The position numbers and the translations under genes are program-made. Source: a bacterium HR39 (GTDB lineage: Bacteria; Pseudomonadota; Alphaproteobacteria; Geminicoccales; Geminicoccaceae). From it: 23,613 nucleotides of DNA. The number at the start of each line of letters is the position of its first letter. Position 1 is the first letter of the stretch. Shown here one piece after another: positions 4,875-16,075 of the stretch. A model generated the notes under the pieces. That model was not told the DNA's origin. It did not search any database and saw nothing but the letters and a program-made list of their open reading frames with translations. The stretch covers positions 1-23,613 of the forward strand of contig BEIP01000001.1 of the NCBI GenBank assembly GCA_002898955.1, read 5' to 3'.

Positions 4875-7800
4875 TCAGGAGCGGAGGGAGGCAGGGTGTC
4901 CGGGTCTTCCCTCGCGCGCCTCCGCCAGCGCCGCGTGGACGGCGTTGCGCTTCGGATGCCACAGGCCGCGGCGGATGGCCTCGGCGAAGCGCTCCAGCAT
5001 CTCGGCGAGCGCCGCGGGATTGCTGCGCTCCATGAACGCCCGCACCTCCGGGTCCTCCACGTAGGCCCGGAACAGGGCGTCGAAGTGGTGGTCCTCCACC
5101 TCGCGGGTGGTGGCGGCGAAGGCGAAGAGATAGTCGACGGTGGCGGCGATCTCGAAGGCGCCCTTGTAGCCGTGGCGCATCATGCCGCGGATCCACTTCG
5201 GATTGGTGGCGCGCGCCCGCACCACCCGCCCGATCTCCTCCCTGAGACTGCGCACGCGCGGGCGGCCGGGGATCGCGTGGTCGCCGAACAGCACGAGCGG
5301 CTCGCGGCCGGAGGCTTCCGCCACCGCGGCCGTGAGGCCGCCGAGGAACTGATAGTAGTCGTCCGAATCGAGAATGTCGTGCTCGCGGTTGTCCTGGTTC
5401 TGCACCACCGCCTCCACGCCGGCGAGCCGCCGCTCGAACAGCTCGCGCGATTTTTCGCCGTGGGTGCCGCGACCGTAGGCGAAGGCGCTCCAGCGCACAT
5501 AAGTCCCGGCCAGATCGCGCCGGCTCTCCCACGAGCCCGTGTCGATGGGCACCTGCAGCCCCGCCCCGTAGGCACCGGGCTGCGAACCGAAGATGCGCAG
5601 CGTCGCAAGCCGGCGGGCCTCGCGCGGGTCGAGCCCGCGGGCCTCGAACAGCGCCCGCTCCTCGCGTGCGGCTTCGGCCAGCGGATTGAGCTCGGGCGGC
5701 TCGTCCAGATCCGCCACCGCCCGCACCGCATCGTCCAAAAGCTCGATCTGGGCGGGGAAGGCGTCGCGGAAGAAGCCGGAGACGCGGAAGAGCACGTCCA
5801 CCCGCGGCCGCCCCAGCACCGAGGCCGGCAGCACTTCCACCCCGGTGACCCGCCCCGTAGCCTCCTCCCATACCGGCCGGCAGCCGAGCAGGGCGAGTGC
5901 CTGGGCCACGTCCTCGCCGCCGGTCCGCATGTTGGCGGTGCCCCAGGCGGAGAGCGCCACCCGCCGCGGCCATTCGCCGGTGCGCTGGAAGTGCCAGGTC
6001 ACCAGCTCCTCCGCCGCCCGCCGGCCCATCTCGAAGGCCGTCGGCGTGGGGACGGCACGCGGGTCCACCGAGAAGAAGTTGCGCCCGGTGGGCAGCACCT
6101 CGATGCGCCCGCGGGTGGGCGCCCCGCCCGGCCCGGGCGGCACGAAGCGCCCGTCCAGCCCGCGCAGCAGCGCCGCCCGCTCCCGCATCCCGCAACAGTC
6201 CAGCCGCGGGATCACGGCGGTGCGCAGATGCTCCAGCACCGCGCGGGTGCGCGCCCAGCCGGGATCGGACTCGCGGCGTCCGGCGATCAGCTCCAGCGCC
6301 AGCGCCTCGAGGCGGGCGGTGGTGTGCGCGACGGTACGCCACGGGCCTTCGGCCATCTCCACGAGAGCCGGCGGCTTCGGCCCGCGCCAGGGCCCGGCCG
6401 GCTCGGCCGCGAGTGGGTCGAAGCCGAGGCCGAGATCGAGGGCGAGGGCACGCAGGATCGACTCCCGCCCTTCCCCGCCTCCGCGCGGGATGCGGGCGAT
6501 GCACAGCAGGAGCTCCTCGCGCGCCGCTCCCGCGGGAGAATCGCCGAAGACGTGCAGGCCGGTGCGGATCTGCAGCTCGGCGAGCTCGCACAGGTGGCTG
6601 TCGACGGCATGGAGCCGCTCGCTCTCCGGTGCGTCCTCGACGCCGAGATCACGGGTGAGGCCCAGCCGCTCGGCCCGCTCCAGGATCTCGCCGCGCAGCG
6701 GCTCGGCCCGCTTCGGATCGAGCTCCTGCGCGTGCCGGTATTCCTCCACCAGCCGCTCGAGGGCGGCGAGCTCACCGTGCAGCCCGGCCCGACCCAGCGG
6801 CGGGGTGAGATGGTCGAGGATCACGGCGGCGGTGCGGCGCTTCGCCTGACTGCCCTCGCCCGGATCGTTGACGACGAAGGGATAGAGGTGCGGCAGCGGC
6901 GGCAGCACGGCGGCGGGAAAGCAGGCGGGCGAGAGGGCGTTGGCCTTGCCCGGCAGCCACTCGAGATTGCCGTGCTTGCCGAAGTGGACCACCGCCTGCG
7001 CGCCGAAGACGTGCGAAAGCCAGAGGTAGAAGGCCAGATAGCCGTGCGGCGGCACCAGTGCCGGATCGTGGTAGGTGACGGCCGGATCGAGGTCGTAGCC
7101 GCGCGAGGGCTGGATGGCGACGACCACGTGCCCGAGCGGCAGCACCGGCAGGGCGAAGCATCCGCCGCGCACGAAGGGATCGTCCTCCGGCCGGCCCCAG
7201 CGGGCGCACACCGCTTCGCGCACCTCTGCGGGCAGGCGGGCGAAGAGCGCGCGGTAGTCCTCGAGCGGCAGTGATGCACGCACCACGCCGTCCCGCGGCC
7301 GGGCATTGGTGGGGCCGGCCTGCAGCTCGCGGATCAGGGCATCCCCGTCCTCCGGCACCCGCTCGACGCCGTAGCCGGCCTCGCCAAGCCACCGCAGGGC
7401 GGCGACGACGCTGTTCGGGGTGTCGAGCCCGACGCCGTTGGCGATGCGCCCGTCGCGGCTGGGGTAGTTGGCGAGCACGAGCGCGATGCGGCGCTCCCCG
7501 GGCGGCGTGCGGGAAAGGCGCACCCAGTTCGCGGCGAGCTCCGCGGCGGCTCCGGCGCCAACCCTGTCCGCCACGTAGCGGGCGAAGACGAGCCCCGTCT
7601 CGGGATCGTGCCCGGCGCTCTCCTTGAAGGCCACGGGGCGGGTGGCGATGCGCCCGTCGACTTCCGGCAGCACCACCTGCATGGCGAGATCGCGCGGGCC
7701 GAGGCCGCGCACATCCCCCTCCCACGCGGCGCGGGGACTGCGCGGCATCACGAGCTGCAGGACCGGCACGTCCGCCACCGCCAGCACGCCGAGGCCGGTG

Positions 7801-8621
7801 GCGTCGAAATCGCCGGTGGCGAAGCCGGTGGCGTTGAGGATCACCGCGGGCGGGCGGCGCCAGAAGAGCCCGGCCAGTCCCGTCGCCACCTCCGGATCGC
7901 GCAGGCTGGTTGCGAAGACGGCGAGCGCCGCGAGGCCGCGCGCATCGAGCGCCCGGCACAGGGCTTCGGCCGGCTCCAGCTCGCCGCTCTGGTAGAGCGC
8001 CCGGTAGAACACGACCGGCGCGAAGGGGCGCTCCGCCGCGAGCCGCTCCGCCGCATCCGGCTCCAGCGCCCCGTGATCGGGATGCCAGAAGAGCAGATGC
8101 GCGAGCGGGCGCACCGGCGGCACCTCCACCTCCCTGCCGAGGTGGCGCGCGCACAGCCGCAGCACCGCGCGCATGTTGTCCACTCCGCCCTCGGCGAAGG
8201 CGGAGAGCAGCTCGCGCCTCAGATCCGGCGGCACGGTGGAGAGCGCGGCGAGATCGGGGTCGTCGCGCGCGTCGCCGGGCAGCAGCACCAGGTCCACGGC
8301 CCCGCTGCCGGCGAGCTCCACCAGCCGGTCCACCCCGTAGCTCCAGTAGGAGCGCCCGCCCAGAAGGCGCACCACCACGAGCCGCGAGGCCGCGAGCGTA
8401 CGCCCCACCAGGAGATCGACGGAATAGGGATGCACGAGCCGCGTCCAGTTGGCGAGGCGCAGCGTCCAGCAGCGCGCGGGATCCGCGGCGTGGGCGGCGG
8501 CGAGGGCGGCGAGCTCGGTGTCGGCGGCGGAGAGGACGACGATGTCGGCCGGATCCAGGCCGGGATCGACCGCCTCCTCCACGTCCGCGGCGCCGGCTTC
8601 GAGAGTGGAGAGCAGGTGCAT
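4875..8621 (-). CDS. cobN: Cobaltochelatase subunit CobN
   Basis: 1248 residues, close to the normal CobN length of about 1270. Known: CobN is the large subunit of the ATP-dependent aerobic cobaltochelatase. With CobS and CobT it inserts cobalt into hydrogenobyrinic acid a,c-diamide during adenosylcobalamin synthesis. Seen: family motifs along the whole length, including HFGKHGNLEWLPGKANALS (near residue 545), a tract with QDNREHDILDSDDYYQFLGG, and near the C-terminus NPKWIRGMMRHGYKGAFEIA. Start: ATG at 8621 (MHLLSTLEAG) matches the family N-terminus; longer in-frame extensions to 8819 overlap the divergent NAD(P)HX repair gene and are unlike CobN. No cobS, cobT, cobW or other cobalamin gene is visible in the window, so its partners are elsewhere. 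Magnesium chelatase BchH/ChlH is related, but this protein's motifs and length fit CobN better. Confidence 0.93.
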   Translation of the reverse strand: MHLLSTLEAGAADVEEAVDPGLDPADIVVLSAADTELAALAAAHAADPARCWTLRLANWTRLVHPYSVDLLVGRTLAASRLVVVRLLGGRSYWSYGVDRLVELAGSGAVDLVLLPGDARDDPDLAALSTVPPDLRRELLSAFAEGGVDNMRAVLRLCARHLGREVEVPPVRPLAHLLFWHPDHGALEPDAAERLAAERPFAPVVFYRALYQSGELEPAEALCRALDARGLAALAVFATSLRDPEVATGLAGLFWRRPPAVILNATGFATGDFDATGLGVLAVADVPVLQLVMPRSPRAAWEGDVRGLGPRDLAMQVVLPEVDGRIATRPVAFKESAGHDPETGLVFARYVADRVGAGAAAELAANWVRLSRTPPGERRIALVLANYPSRDGRIANGVGLDTPNSVVAALRWLGEAGYGVERVPEDGDALIRELQAGPTNARPRDGVVRASLPLEDYRALFARLPAEVREAVCARWGRPEDDPFVRGGCFALPVLPLGHVVVAIQPSRGYDLDPAVTYHDPALVPPHGYLAFYLWLSHVFGAQAVVHFGKHGNLEWLPGKANALSPACFPAAVLPPLPHLYPFVVNDPGEGSQAKRRTAAVILDHLTPPLGRAGLHGELAALERLVEEYRHAQELDPKRAEPLRGEILERAERLGLTRDLGVEDAPESERLHAVDSHLCELAELQIRTGLHVFGDSPAGAAREELLLCIARIPRGGGEGRESILRALALDLGLGFDPLAAEPAGPWRGPKPPALVEMAEGPWRTVAHTTARLEALALELIAGRRESDPGWARTRAVLEHLRTAVIPRLDCCGMRERAALLRGLDGRFVPPGPGGAPTRGRIEVLPTGRNFFSVDPRAVPTPTAFEMGRRAAEELVTWHFQRTGEWPRRVALSAWGTANMRTGGEDVAQALALLGCRPVWEEATGRVTGVEVLPASVLGRPRVDVLFRVSGFFRDAFPAQIELLDDAVRAVADLDEPPELNPLAEAAREERALFEARGLDPREARRLATLRIFGSQPGAYGAGLQVPIDTGSWESRRDLAGTYVRWSAFAYGRGTHGEKSRELFERRLAGVEAVVQNQDNREHDILDSDDYYQFLGGLTAAVAEASGREPLVLFGDHAIPGRPRVRSLREEIGRVVRARATNPKWIRGMMRHGYKGAFEIAATVDYLFAFAATTREVEDHHFDALFRAYVEDPEVRAFMERSNPAALAEMLERFAEAIRRGLWHPKRNAVHAALAEAREGRPGHPASLRS

Positions 8622-12181: not shown

Positions 12182-13472
12182 GGCCGCCGCTGCCGCGCGC
12201 CGCTCCGCCGCGCCTCGTCCTCCTGGCCCTCCTCCTGCTGCCGCTGCTCCTCGCTTCGTGCGGCCGCGGACCGGGCCGTCATCTCGACCCCGCCGACTTC
12301 TCGGAACTTCCCGGCTTCGCGCAGGACGACCCGCGTCCGGCCCTGCGCGCCTTCCTGCGCGGCTGTCCCGCCTTCGCCCGCATGGATGGGGACGCACCGG
12401 TGGATCCCCTGGGCGATCCGCGCCTCGGCACCGCCGGCGACTGGCGGCGGATCTGCGAGCGCGCGGCGGCGGTGGACCCGGAGGATCCCGGGGCCGTGCG
12501 CCGCTTCTTCACCGCGCACTTCCGCCCGCTCGCCGTGGACGACGGCGAGGACGGCCGCGGGCTCTTCACCGGCTACTACGAACCGGAGCTCTCGGGCTCG
12601 CCCGTGCCCGACGCCCGCTTCGCCCATCCCCTCTACGCCCGCCCGCCGGATCTGGTGGACGTGGACCTCGGCCTGTTCGACCCCGAGCTGCGCGGCCGGC
12701 GCATCGCCGGGCGGGTCGAGGGCACGCGGCTCGTTCCCTACTTCGACCGCGCCGCCATCGACGCCGGCGCGCTCGCCGGGCGCGGGCTGGAACTGCTGTG
12801 GGTGGACGATCCCGTCGACGCCTTCTTCCTCCACATCCAGGGATCGGGCCGGGTGCGCCTTCCCGACGGACGGGTGCTGCGGGTGGGCTACGCCGGACAG
12901 AACGGCCGTCCCTACCGCGCCATCGGCCGCGATCTCGTGGAGATGGGCGAGCTCTCGCGCGAGGAGGTCTCGCTGTTCTCCATCCGCGCCTGGCTCACGG
13001 CCCATCCCGACCGCGCCCGCGGGCTGCTGCACCGCAACCCCTCCTACGTCTTCTTCCGCATCCTCGGCGAGGTGCGTGGGGACGAGGGTCCGCCCGGAGC
13101 GATGGATGTGCCGCTCACGCCGGAACGTTCCATCGCCGTCGACCGCCGCTACTGGCCGCTCGGCGTGCCCTTCTTCGTCGATGTTCCGGTCCCCTTCCCC
13201 GAGGGCGAACGGCCGTGGCGCCGGCTGGTGGTGGCGCAGGACACCGGCGGCGCCATCCGCGGGCCCCTCCGCGCCGACGTCTTCTGGGGCTGGGGCAAGC
13301 GGGCCGAATTCACGGCCGGCCACATGAAGCACGAGGGGCGGATGTGGGTGCTGGTGCCGCGCGCGGTGATGGCCACCGTCGCGGCCCGCGGGGAACGACG
13401 GCCTCTGGCGGGGGCGCGCCGCTGCTCCTACCATGCGCCGCGGCCGTCCGGACGGGAGAGGGGATGCCGTGA
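12178..13472 (+). CDS. mltA: Membrane-bound lytic murein transglycosylase A, with a missing stop at its end
   Basis: Seen: a lipoprotein signal peptide (lipobox LASC, Cys28), an MltA domain with GLFTGYYEPELSGS and FFLHIQGSGRVRLPDG, and the 3D domain with VAQDTGGAIRGPLRADVFWGWG, whose Asp residues include the expected catalytic acid, ending in TAGHMKHEGRMWVLVPR (to about 13365). Known: MltA cleaves the MurNAc-GlcNAc bond with 1,6-anhydro formation at the outer membrane. Odd: beyond this the frame has no stop until 16353, because it runs as an alternative frame through pepN. A -1 shift anywhere between about 13370 and 13469 reaches a TGA at 13470-13472 that overlaps the pepN GTG (GTGA). G runs at 13390-13393 and 13410-13414 are likely indel sites. 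The end given here assumes that shift; the N-terminal 395 or so residues are certain. Confidence 0.8.
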
Positions 13473-16075
13473 GCGACGTCGCCCCGCGCGAGATCCGCCT
13501 CGAGGACTATCGCCCGCCCGCCTTCACCACCCGCGAGGCGCGCCTGCGCTTCGAGCTCGATCCCGCCGCCACCGTCGTGGAGGCGGAGCTCCTCGTGGAG
13601 CGCATCGGCGAGGGGCCGCTCGAGCTCTACGGCGAGGACCTCGAGACCCTGGCCTTCACCGTCGACGGCCGCGCCCTCGATCCGGACGCGCTGCCCGTCG
13701 AGGGCGGGGTGCTGCGCCTTCGCGCCGTGCCCGATCGCGCCCGCATCGTCACCCGCGTGCGCATCTTCCCGGCCGAGAACCACGCGCTCTCCGGGCTGTA
13801 CGAGAGCGGCGGGCTGCTGGTCACCCAGTGCGAGGCCGAGGGCTTCCGCCGCATCACCTGGTACCAGGACCGTCCCGACGTTCTGGCGCGCTTTTCCGTG
13901 CGCCTCGAGGCCGACCGCAGCCGCTATCCCGTCCTGCTCGCGAACGGCAATCCGGGCGCGCGCGGCGAGCTTCCGGGCGGCCGCCACTTCGCCGAATGGC
14001 ACGACCCCTTCCCCAAGCCCGGCTATCTCTTCGCGCTGGTGGCGGGCGATCTCGCCCGCATCGAGGGCACCCACACCACCCGCTCGGGCCGCGAGGTGGC
14101 GCTCCACCTCTACGCCCGGCCCGGCGAGGTGGAGCGCTGCCGCTACGCGCTGCGGGCGCTGTCCACCGCCATGCGCTGGGACGAGGACGTCTACGGTCTC
14201 GAGTGCGACCTCGACCTGTTCCAGATCGTGGCGGTGCCGGCTTTCAACTTCGGGGCCATGGAGAACAAGGGCCTCAACATCTTCAACGCCGCGGCCCTCC
14301 TCGCCGATCCCGAGATCGCCACCGACCGCGACCACCTGCGGGTCGCCCGCGTGGTGGCGCACGAGTACTTCCACAACTGGACCGGCAACCGCGTCACCCT
14401 GCGCGACTGGTTCCAGCTCACCCTCAAGGAGGGGCTCACCGTCCTGCGCGACCAGTAGTTCATGGCCGACTGGCACTCGCCGGGAGTGACGCGCATCGAG
14501 GACGTGCAGCTGCTGCGCGAGGTGCAGTTCCCCGAGGACGCCGGTCCGCTGCGCCATCCGGTGCGGCCGCGGCGTTTCGTCACCATCGACAACTTCTACA
14601 CCGCCACCGTCTACTACAAGGGCGCCGAAGTCCTGCGCATGCTGGAGGCGATGTACGGCCGCTCCGGCTTCGTGCGCGGCGTGCGCCACTATCTGGAAAA
14701 GATGGACGGGCGGGCCGCCACGGTGGAGGACTTCCTCGCCTGCATGGAGGAGGCGCTCGGCGTGGACCTCTCCGCCTTCGCCCGCTGGTACGACGAGGCG
14801 GGGACGCCGCGCCTGTCCGCCCGCTGGCGGCACGAGGACGGTGCCTTCGTGCTCGACCTCGCCCAGGAGCGCCCCGACGGCGTGGACGAACCCCTGGTGA
14901 TCCCGGTGCGGCTTTCGCTGCTGGACCGCGAGGCCGGCGCGCCCGTCCCGTCCGTCGGCCCCGACGGTCGCGAGGCGGTGGAGCACGTGGTGGTGCTCGA
15001 TGCCTTCACCGCGAGCTTCCGCTTCGGCGTGGCGTCGTCCGGCGGGCTCGTGCCCTCGCTGCTGCGCGGCTTCTCGGCGCCGGTGCTGCTGGATGCGCCC
15101 CATACCCCCGAAGACCTCGCCTTCCTCCTCGCCCGCGACGACGACCCCTTCGCCCGCTTCGACGCCGGCCAGAGCCTCGCGCTGATGGCGCTGGAAGCGC
15201 GCTATCGCGGCGGCGACGGCGAGGCCGAGCGGGTGCTGTCCGGGGCGTTCGCGCGGGTGCTGGCGGAGCTTCCCGAAGACCGGGCGCTCGCGGCCGAACT
15301 CTTGGCCCTGCCCACCCGCAATCGGCTTGCGGAGAAGGTGGCGCCCTTCGATCCGCTGCGGGTGGACTCGAGCTGGCGGGGGCTGCGGCGCGATCTCGCC
15401 GGACCGCTCGCGGCCGACCTCTGCGCGGCGCTGGACGGCATCGAGGTCCCCGGCCCGTGGCGCCCCGAGATTCCGGACATGGGCGCACGCGCCCTGCGGG
15501 CGCGGCTCCTGCAGTGGCTCGCTGCGGCATCGCCCGAGGAGGCCACGGCCCGCATCCTCCACCTCTACACCCGCGCCGACAACCTCACCGACCGGCTGGC
15601 GGCGCTGGAGCCGGCCGCCTTCGAGGGGCTGGAGCCGGCGGAGGAGCTGCTCGAGGACTTCCGCCGCCGCTTCGGCCACGAGCCGCTGCTGCTGGACAAG
15701 TGGTACGCCCTGCAGGCGCGGCGCGAGGACGCGACGGCGGTGGAGCGGGTGGAGGCGCTCTCCCGCGCGCCGGACTTCCTCTGGCGCAACCCCAACCGGG
15801 TGCGGGCGCTGTTCGTCACCTTCGCCCAGGCCAATCTGCGCGGCTTCCACCGGCCCGACGGCGCCGGCTACCGGCTGCTCGCCGGGGCGGTGGCGCGCAT
15901 CGACCGGGACAATCCGCAGCTCGCCGCCCAGCTTGCCCGCCCGCTCACGCGCTTTTCCCGGCTCGTGGAGCCGTGGTGCACGGCCATGCGGGCGGCGCTG
16001 GAGGACCTCGCCCTGCGGCCGGGGCTCTCGAAGGACCTCGCCGAGATCCTCGCCCGCGCGCTCGGGCGGACTTGA
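13469..16075 (+). pseudogene. pepN: Aminopeptidase N (M1 family) interrupted by one in-frame amber codon
   Basis: Seen: 869 codons from a GTG at 13469 (GGGAGAGGGG five bases upstream) to TGA, matching the 870 residues of E. coli PepN, with one TAG at codon 330. The first part (329 residues) holds the substrate-binding GAMEN (262-266), HEYFH (His298, Glu299, His302) and Glu321, the third zinc ligand. The second part (537 residues from an ATG at 14462) starts within the same domain and holds the catalytic Tyr equivalent (position 382, TVYYKGAE) and the whole C-terminal region. Family members read DQEF where this reads DQ-stop-F, so GAG to TAG is the simplest explanation. Known: PepN removes N-terminal amino acids from peptides in the cytoplasm using zinc. 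Both halves are otherwise intact, so this is either recent inactivation, a sequence error, readthrough, or reinitiation at the ATG three bases after the stop. Confidence 0.85.
14456..14458 (+). other. In-frame amber codon within pepN
   Basis: TAG in the pepN frame, preceded by GACCAG (Asp-Gln) and followed by TTC ATG. The conserved family residue here is Glu (GAG), one base different. Amber also ends the thioesterase (2137-2139) and NAD(P)HX repair (10272-10274) genes, so it is not reassigned. No Shine-Dalgarno stands at a normal distance from the ATG at 14462. Confidence 0.9.

Follow-up and report, generated by a model that had tools for sequence, protein, structure and literature searches.

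An in-frame amber codon in pepN of a Geminicoccaceae draft genome, probably a consensus error and one of several in the same assembly

Introduction

The pepN gene for an M1 aminopeptidase in a draft genome of the Geminicoccaceae is full length apart from a single in-frame TAG. This raises the question of whether the organism carries a split or disabled gene, reads the codon through, or has a whole gene that the draft misrepresents. Stray in-frame stops of this sort are already known. The available excerpts of Belinky et al. 2021 (PMC7918605) include a TAG/CAG example in a conserved bacterial gene and list sequencing error, pseudogenes, annotation artefacts and readthrough as sources of such stops. 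A literature search on error-born stops in metagenome-assembled genomes (MAGs) gave nothing directly matching and led mainly to that article, in the same excerpts. A preliminary description of the locus named nonsense mutation, readthrough, coupled reinitiation and base-calling error, and this list of options was the right one.

Materials and methods

The window is the whole stretch of 23,613 nucleotides that was analysed and corresponds to contig C1 of the MAG G000 (1.99 Mb in 396 contigs, estimated 74% complete). Its GC content is 70-78% in 1 kb steps. A long intact CobN/magnesium-chelatase-type gene (PF02514) lies at 4875-8621 on the minus strand, near alcohol-dehydrogenase-like genes. In-frame stops were sought in 121 contigs of G000 (960,375 bases) with our own coding-potential scan, which was retuned twice and required the stop to be flanked on either side by coding sequence in its own frame. 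TAG candidates were placed in genes using Pfam, solved structures or relatives, and some families were assigned from the best matches to the joined query rather than from trees. For comparison, 306 kb of the 2.7 Mb sister MAG G003 were sampled. The ORFs compared numbered 671 and 183, of which 66 and 60, respectively, aligned at ≥50% identity. Table 1 lists the features.

Table 1. Pieces of pepN in the window and in-frame TAG codons placed within genes of the MAG
Feature	Location	Strand	Evidence
pepN first piece: N-terminal M1 domain and zinc-binding half of the catalytic domain	13433..14458	+	ORF; Pfam PF17900 and PF01433 positions 1-101/218
Alternative pepN start, GTG	13469	+	ORF listing
In-frame amber codon; residue variable in relatives, Gln in the closest	14456..14458	+	Sequence, alignments
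pepN second piece: remaining catalytic domain, Ig-like domain, C-terminal ARM-like domain	14462..16075	+	ORF; Pfam PF01433 positions 128-216, PF11940, PF17432
In-frame TAG, pepN	C1, 14456-14458	+	Homology
In-frame TAG, murG	C9 (L117)		Homology
In-frame TAG, HTH regulator	C14 (L122)		Homology
In-frame TAGs, aminotransferase, sigma-32 gene and moaE	C16 (L124)		Homology
In-frame TAG, CoxL/xanthine-dehydrogenase-like gene	C45 (L173)		Homology
In-frame TAG, phoD	C47 (L175)		Homology
In-frame TAG, 3-hydroxyisobutyrate-dehydrogenase-like gene	C59 (L187)		Homology
In-frame TAGs, surA and ksgA	C80 (L208)		Homology
In-frame TAG, PilS/RegB-like sensor gene	C116 (L244)		Homology

Results

The pepN frame spans 13433-16075 (+) and holds the lone TAG and no second stop. 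The TAG stands between residues RDQ and FMADW and is followed by TTC ATG, with 341 codons upstream when counted from the first ATG (329 from the GTG) and 537 downstream from the ATG at 14462. With the two pieces scored separately, all four PepN domains (N-terminal M1, Peptidase_M1, DUF3458 and DUF3458_C) were found in order, and the Peptidase_M1 domain itself is interrupted by the TAG. Of the two pieces, the first holds the zinc-site residues (H310, E311, H314 and E333) and the second holds the YxKG tyrosine, Y394, which we take to be the catalytic Tyr. The roles given here to HEXXH with its downstream Glu, to GAMEN and to YxKG are likewise assumed. Invariant columns among 14 aligned sequences (H310, E311, H314, E333, G274-N278, Y394, K396 and G397) fall on both sides of the TAG. 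The frame matches intact relatives end to end at 86, 72 and 71% identity, so the split gene is more than chance. In domains, zinc-site residues and length the copy is like the PepN M1 family (PF17900, PF01433, PF11940, PF17432), but it is not a single continuous PepN reading frame, being cut by one TAG (translation table 11), whereas pepN runs as a single open frame in its two carriers within the genus. These results bear out the preliminary description as to the split of an otherwise full-length gene, the separation of the zinc-binding residues from the Tyr with motifs intact, the ATG after one codon, and the use of amber at the end of two other ORFs of the window, since coding-like ORFs stop with TAG at 2137 and 10272.

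That description had also taken the TAG to replace a conserved Glu of a DQEF motif; this did not hold. The residue at the site in 57 relatives was E in 25, Q in 7, S in 7, C in 6, G in 4, L in 3, R in 2, and K, N and T in one each (scored by a motif pattern over 83 loci, one being the window's own and 25 being missed by the pattern and uncounted). Among 13 full-length close relatives it was Q in 9, L in 2, and E and K in one each. The four nearest relatives (P0001, P0002, P0003 and P0005) all have Gln, as do both genus members possessing pepN, by their codons. Loss of a conserved Glu was rejected, and the alignments indicate that the TAG occupies a tolerant, variable position, one base from the codon of its nearest kin. 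The Met two codons past the TAG is an ordinary residue in 11 of the 13 close relatives, so the ATG is an ancestral Met codon that is older than the stop and no adaptation to it.

A pepN match was present in 29 of 31 family genomes (several matches being contig-edge pieces), and the TAG occurred only in G000. G004 and G008 each have one TGA somewhere in the stretch matching pepN. No M1 aminopeptidase match was found in G002 of the same genus (listed as 99% complete, 440 contigs), by gene loss or an assembly gap. The nearest intact protein among the best 120 matches was P0001 at 86% identity. With P0002 and P0003 as outgroups, lineage-specific changes numbered 7 in the window copy and 5 in P0001 before the TAG, and 14 and 12 after it. 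Identity to P0001 is 90.0% upstream of the TAG and 84.0% downstream, and in other sequence pairs the second half of PepN is likewise less conserved than the first. Because the change counts are near equal and the other pairs follow the same pattern, the second half is not decaying faster. Decay of that half in relatives had been proposed as the mark of a plain pseudogene. Decay of the second half was discarded; what was found is one stop, without several lesions or relaxed constraint past it. An intact copy from the same species was sought for pepN and for murG. Among the best 120 matches in each case, the contig's own truncated product was followed by a relative at 86% and 63% identity, respectively. 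When the first pepN piece was the query, the window's own first piece was absent among the best 120 matches.

The first scan of G000 gave 34 candidate in-frame stops (15 TAG, 19 TGA, no TAA) and a relaxed scan gave 43 (17 TAG, 26 TGA, no TAA). Pooling of both resulted in 18 distinct TAG candidates, of which 12 lie inside genes by homology, three at gene junctions by Pfam (C5, C78 and C79) and three are unassigned (C8, C73 and C118). On C78 (L206 near 676) argF and hslO share a frame in which the TAG is the sole stop separating them, and the same holds on C79 (L207 near 4335) for an rsmB-like and a purH-like gene. The TGA candidates were taken for gene junctions by eye rather than typed singly; a start codon lies at most nine codons away in 22 of 26, the other four being on C15, C74, C114 and C119. 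The stops established within genes of the G000 sample are therefore 12 TAG and no TGA or TAA. They are clustered by contig, with three on C16 and two on C80 (P = 0.006). A second sigma-32-like match, at 48% identity, was seen on C44 and has no stop. Comparison of 60 alignable G003 ORFs (20,754 codons) with G000 gave four stop rows, two of which are TAGs already counted and two (C42 and C4) of which were taken by eye for misread frames; a frameshift-like break was looked for in the 60 aligned genes and none was found. Scanning of the sampled part of G003 yielded no TAG candidate. One TGA lies within an asparagine synthase gene (L155 near 5740) and another probably within a beta-propeller gene (L163 near 4216). 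A 16S rRNA gene, sought as an error yardstick, had no match in any of the four genus genomes.

Given the codon usage, TAG is expected to make up about 70% of random nonsense changes. The probability of 12 out of 12 is 0.013 under uniform and 0.012 under transition-biased substitution and, for single-type spectra, 0.010 (C>T), 0.005 (C>A), 0.04 (T>A) and 0.64 (C>G); the TAG-only set is improbable under most random-substitution models. The stop types differ between G000 (12 TAG to none) and G003 (none to two TGA) with Fisher P = 0.011, a post hoc test on small numbers.

The residues that relatives carry at the TAGs were compared for 11 of the 12 genes, with the aminotransferase site left out. 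They are Gln for pepN and the sigma-32 gene; Glu for murG, the regulator, moaE and the CoxL-like gene; Ala, Lys/Arg and Pro/Arg/Leu at three further sites (genus comparison); and Trp for phoD (solved structures) and the sensor gene (G003). On these alignments, TAG has no single amino-acid meaning, and the residues are such as scattered one-base changes would give. Reassignment of TAG to one amino acid was rejected on the same spread. An amber suppressor tRNA had been suggested as a check; no tRNA with a CUA anticodon was found among the 22 tRNA loci detected throughout the MAG (74% complete), in 120 further contigs or in the window. No tRNA-Gln, tRNA-Tyr or tRNA-Lys is among the 22. Release factor RF1 (prfA) was above the cut-off in all four genus genomes, and the copy in G000 (L251) has no internal stop. 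The RF1 tripeptide that presumably reads the stop codon is PIT in G000 (L251) and PVT in G001. A PylS profile search gave nothing above the cut-off, and pyrrolysine decoding was dropped on that result. TAG ends 64 of 651 coding-like frames in G000 and 15 of 194 in G003 and is not depleted at termini.

Discussion

We consider it probable (about 0.6) that the pepN gene of the organism is whole and that the TAG arose as one among many single-base substitutions scattered through the draft, most likely as an error of the consensus. Since conserved genes of the same MAG contain at least 11 more in-frame TAGs, a mechanism specific to pepN is unlikely, and of the listed options base-calling or assembly error moves to the top. 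Scattered single-base consensus errors in a fragmented metagenome draft would create in-frame TAGs in one gene after another, and the pepN TAG would need no mechanism of its own. Relatives have a sense codon at this site, where the residue varies and is tolerated, and the next ATG is an ordinary Met codon. The differing residues at the TAGs (Q, E, A, K/R, P/R/L and W) fit scattered one-base changes, the clustering by contig fits uneven draft quality, and the lack of frameshift-like breaks is expected of substitution-type errors. The murG gene is essential, and a cell could hardly be expected to live with a product lacking the C-terminal quarter. In-frame stops also occur in the sister MAG G003, which counts for error; those stops are TGA, whereas all 12 in G000 are TAG, which counts against it, as does the failure to find an intact same-species copy of pepN or murG among the best 120 matches. 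That the base at 14456 is wrong and absent from the cell is what we infer as most likely.

It is unlikely, though the next best reading, that the sampled population truly carries these amber mutations, either as fixed losses or as strain variants chosen by the assembler. A single lesion with an undecayed second half is how a fresh mutation would look. The gene may be dispensable, given G002, which is listed as 99% complete in 440 contigs and has no M1 match. The stop-free match on C44 (48% identity) could buffer the sigma-32 lesion and softens the argument from that gene. However, such mutations would have to number at least 12, all amber and one of them in murG, in under half a genome.

Less probable again is tolerance of amber codons throughout the organism, with a suppressor tRNA or a weak RF1 by which TAG is read often enough for amber mutations to be kept. 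An equally doubtful version in detail is that of a hot-spring-type alphaproteobacterium in which a suppressor tRNA outside the assembly, or a weakened RF1, has TAG read for several residues. In its favour, every one of the 12 in-frame stops placed by homology is TAG, for which most spectra give a P of about 0.01, and two of these fall in genes likely to be important, murG and the sigma-32 gene. In addition, 6 of 9 sites have Glu or Gln in all genus relatives compared, which a Gln-inserting suppressor could serve. The suppressor could sit in the missing part of the genome, given the 22 tRNAs found and no tRNA-Gln, Tyr or Lys among them. PMC7918605, as excerpted, also argues that bacteria commonly have in-frame stops with no further sign of decay and that such stops are frequently read through.

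Against amber tolerance stand the search for a CUA tRNA, which was negative in all loci and contigs covered, the open RF1 in all four genus genomes, the lack of a PylS match above the cut-off, and the undiminished use of TAG at termini, about a tenth of frames. Efficient readthrough would fuse the argF-hslO products on C78 and the rsmB-like/purH-like products on C79. One inserted residue would poorly serve the Trp sites and the Glu of MurG, which we assume to contact the substrate, and clustering of TAGs on contigs is not expected. The case thus resembles pyrrolysine or suppressor-tRNA decoding in having TAG inside conserved reading frames but departs from it in the absence of PylS over the cut-off and of a CUA tRNA among those found, in the presence of RF1 and in the inconsistent residues. 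It is like the cases of PMC7918605, as excerpted, in its single in-frame stop and its flanks without visible decay, whereas the emphasis there is on stops found in at least two species and the pepN TAG occurs in one MAG, beside others in the same draft.

Termination-reinitiation, in which two polypeptides of one mRNA would assemble as a two-piece PepN, was put forward in the preliminary description and is very improbable: an ATG lies three bases past the TAG and both pieces carry recognisable domains, but the Met is ancestral, no purine run resembling a ribosome-binding site was seen by eye at the usual distance before the ATG at 14462, the cut falls inside the Peptidase_M1 domain, no relative among the family genomes searched shares the TAG, and the other 11 TAG genes would be left unexplained. 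It was rejected on the ancestral Met and the unshared TAG. The ranking is consensus error first, real nonsense variants second, amber tolerance third and reinitiation last.

On its own, pepN matters little beyond the warning that a lone in-frame stop in a draft should not be taken for a split or lost gene. What deserves a check is the restriction of the MAG's established in-frame stops to TAG. If the TAGs are errors, the MAG is unsuitable for inferring gene loss. If they are real, a free-living bacterium would maintain a standing tolerance of amber codons alongside RF1, and if that tolerance is true, amber mutations, and only amber mutations, would survive even in genes of the grade of murG.
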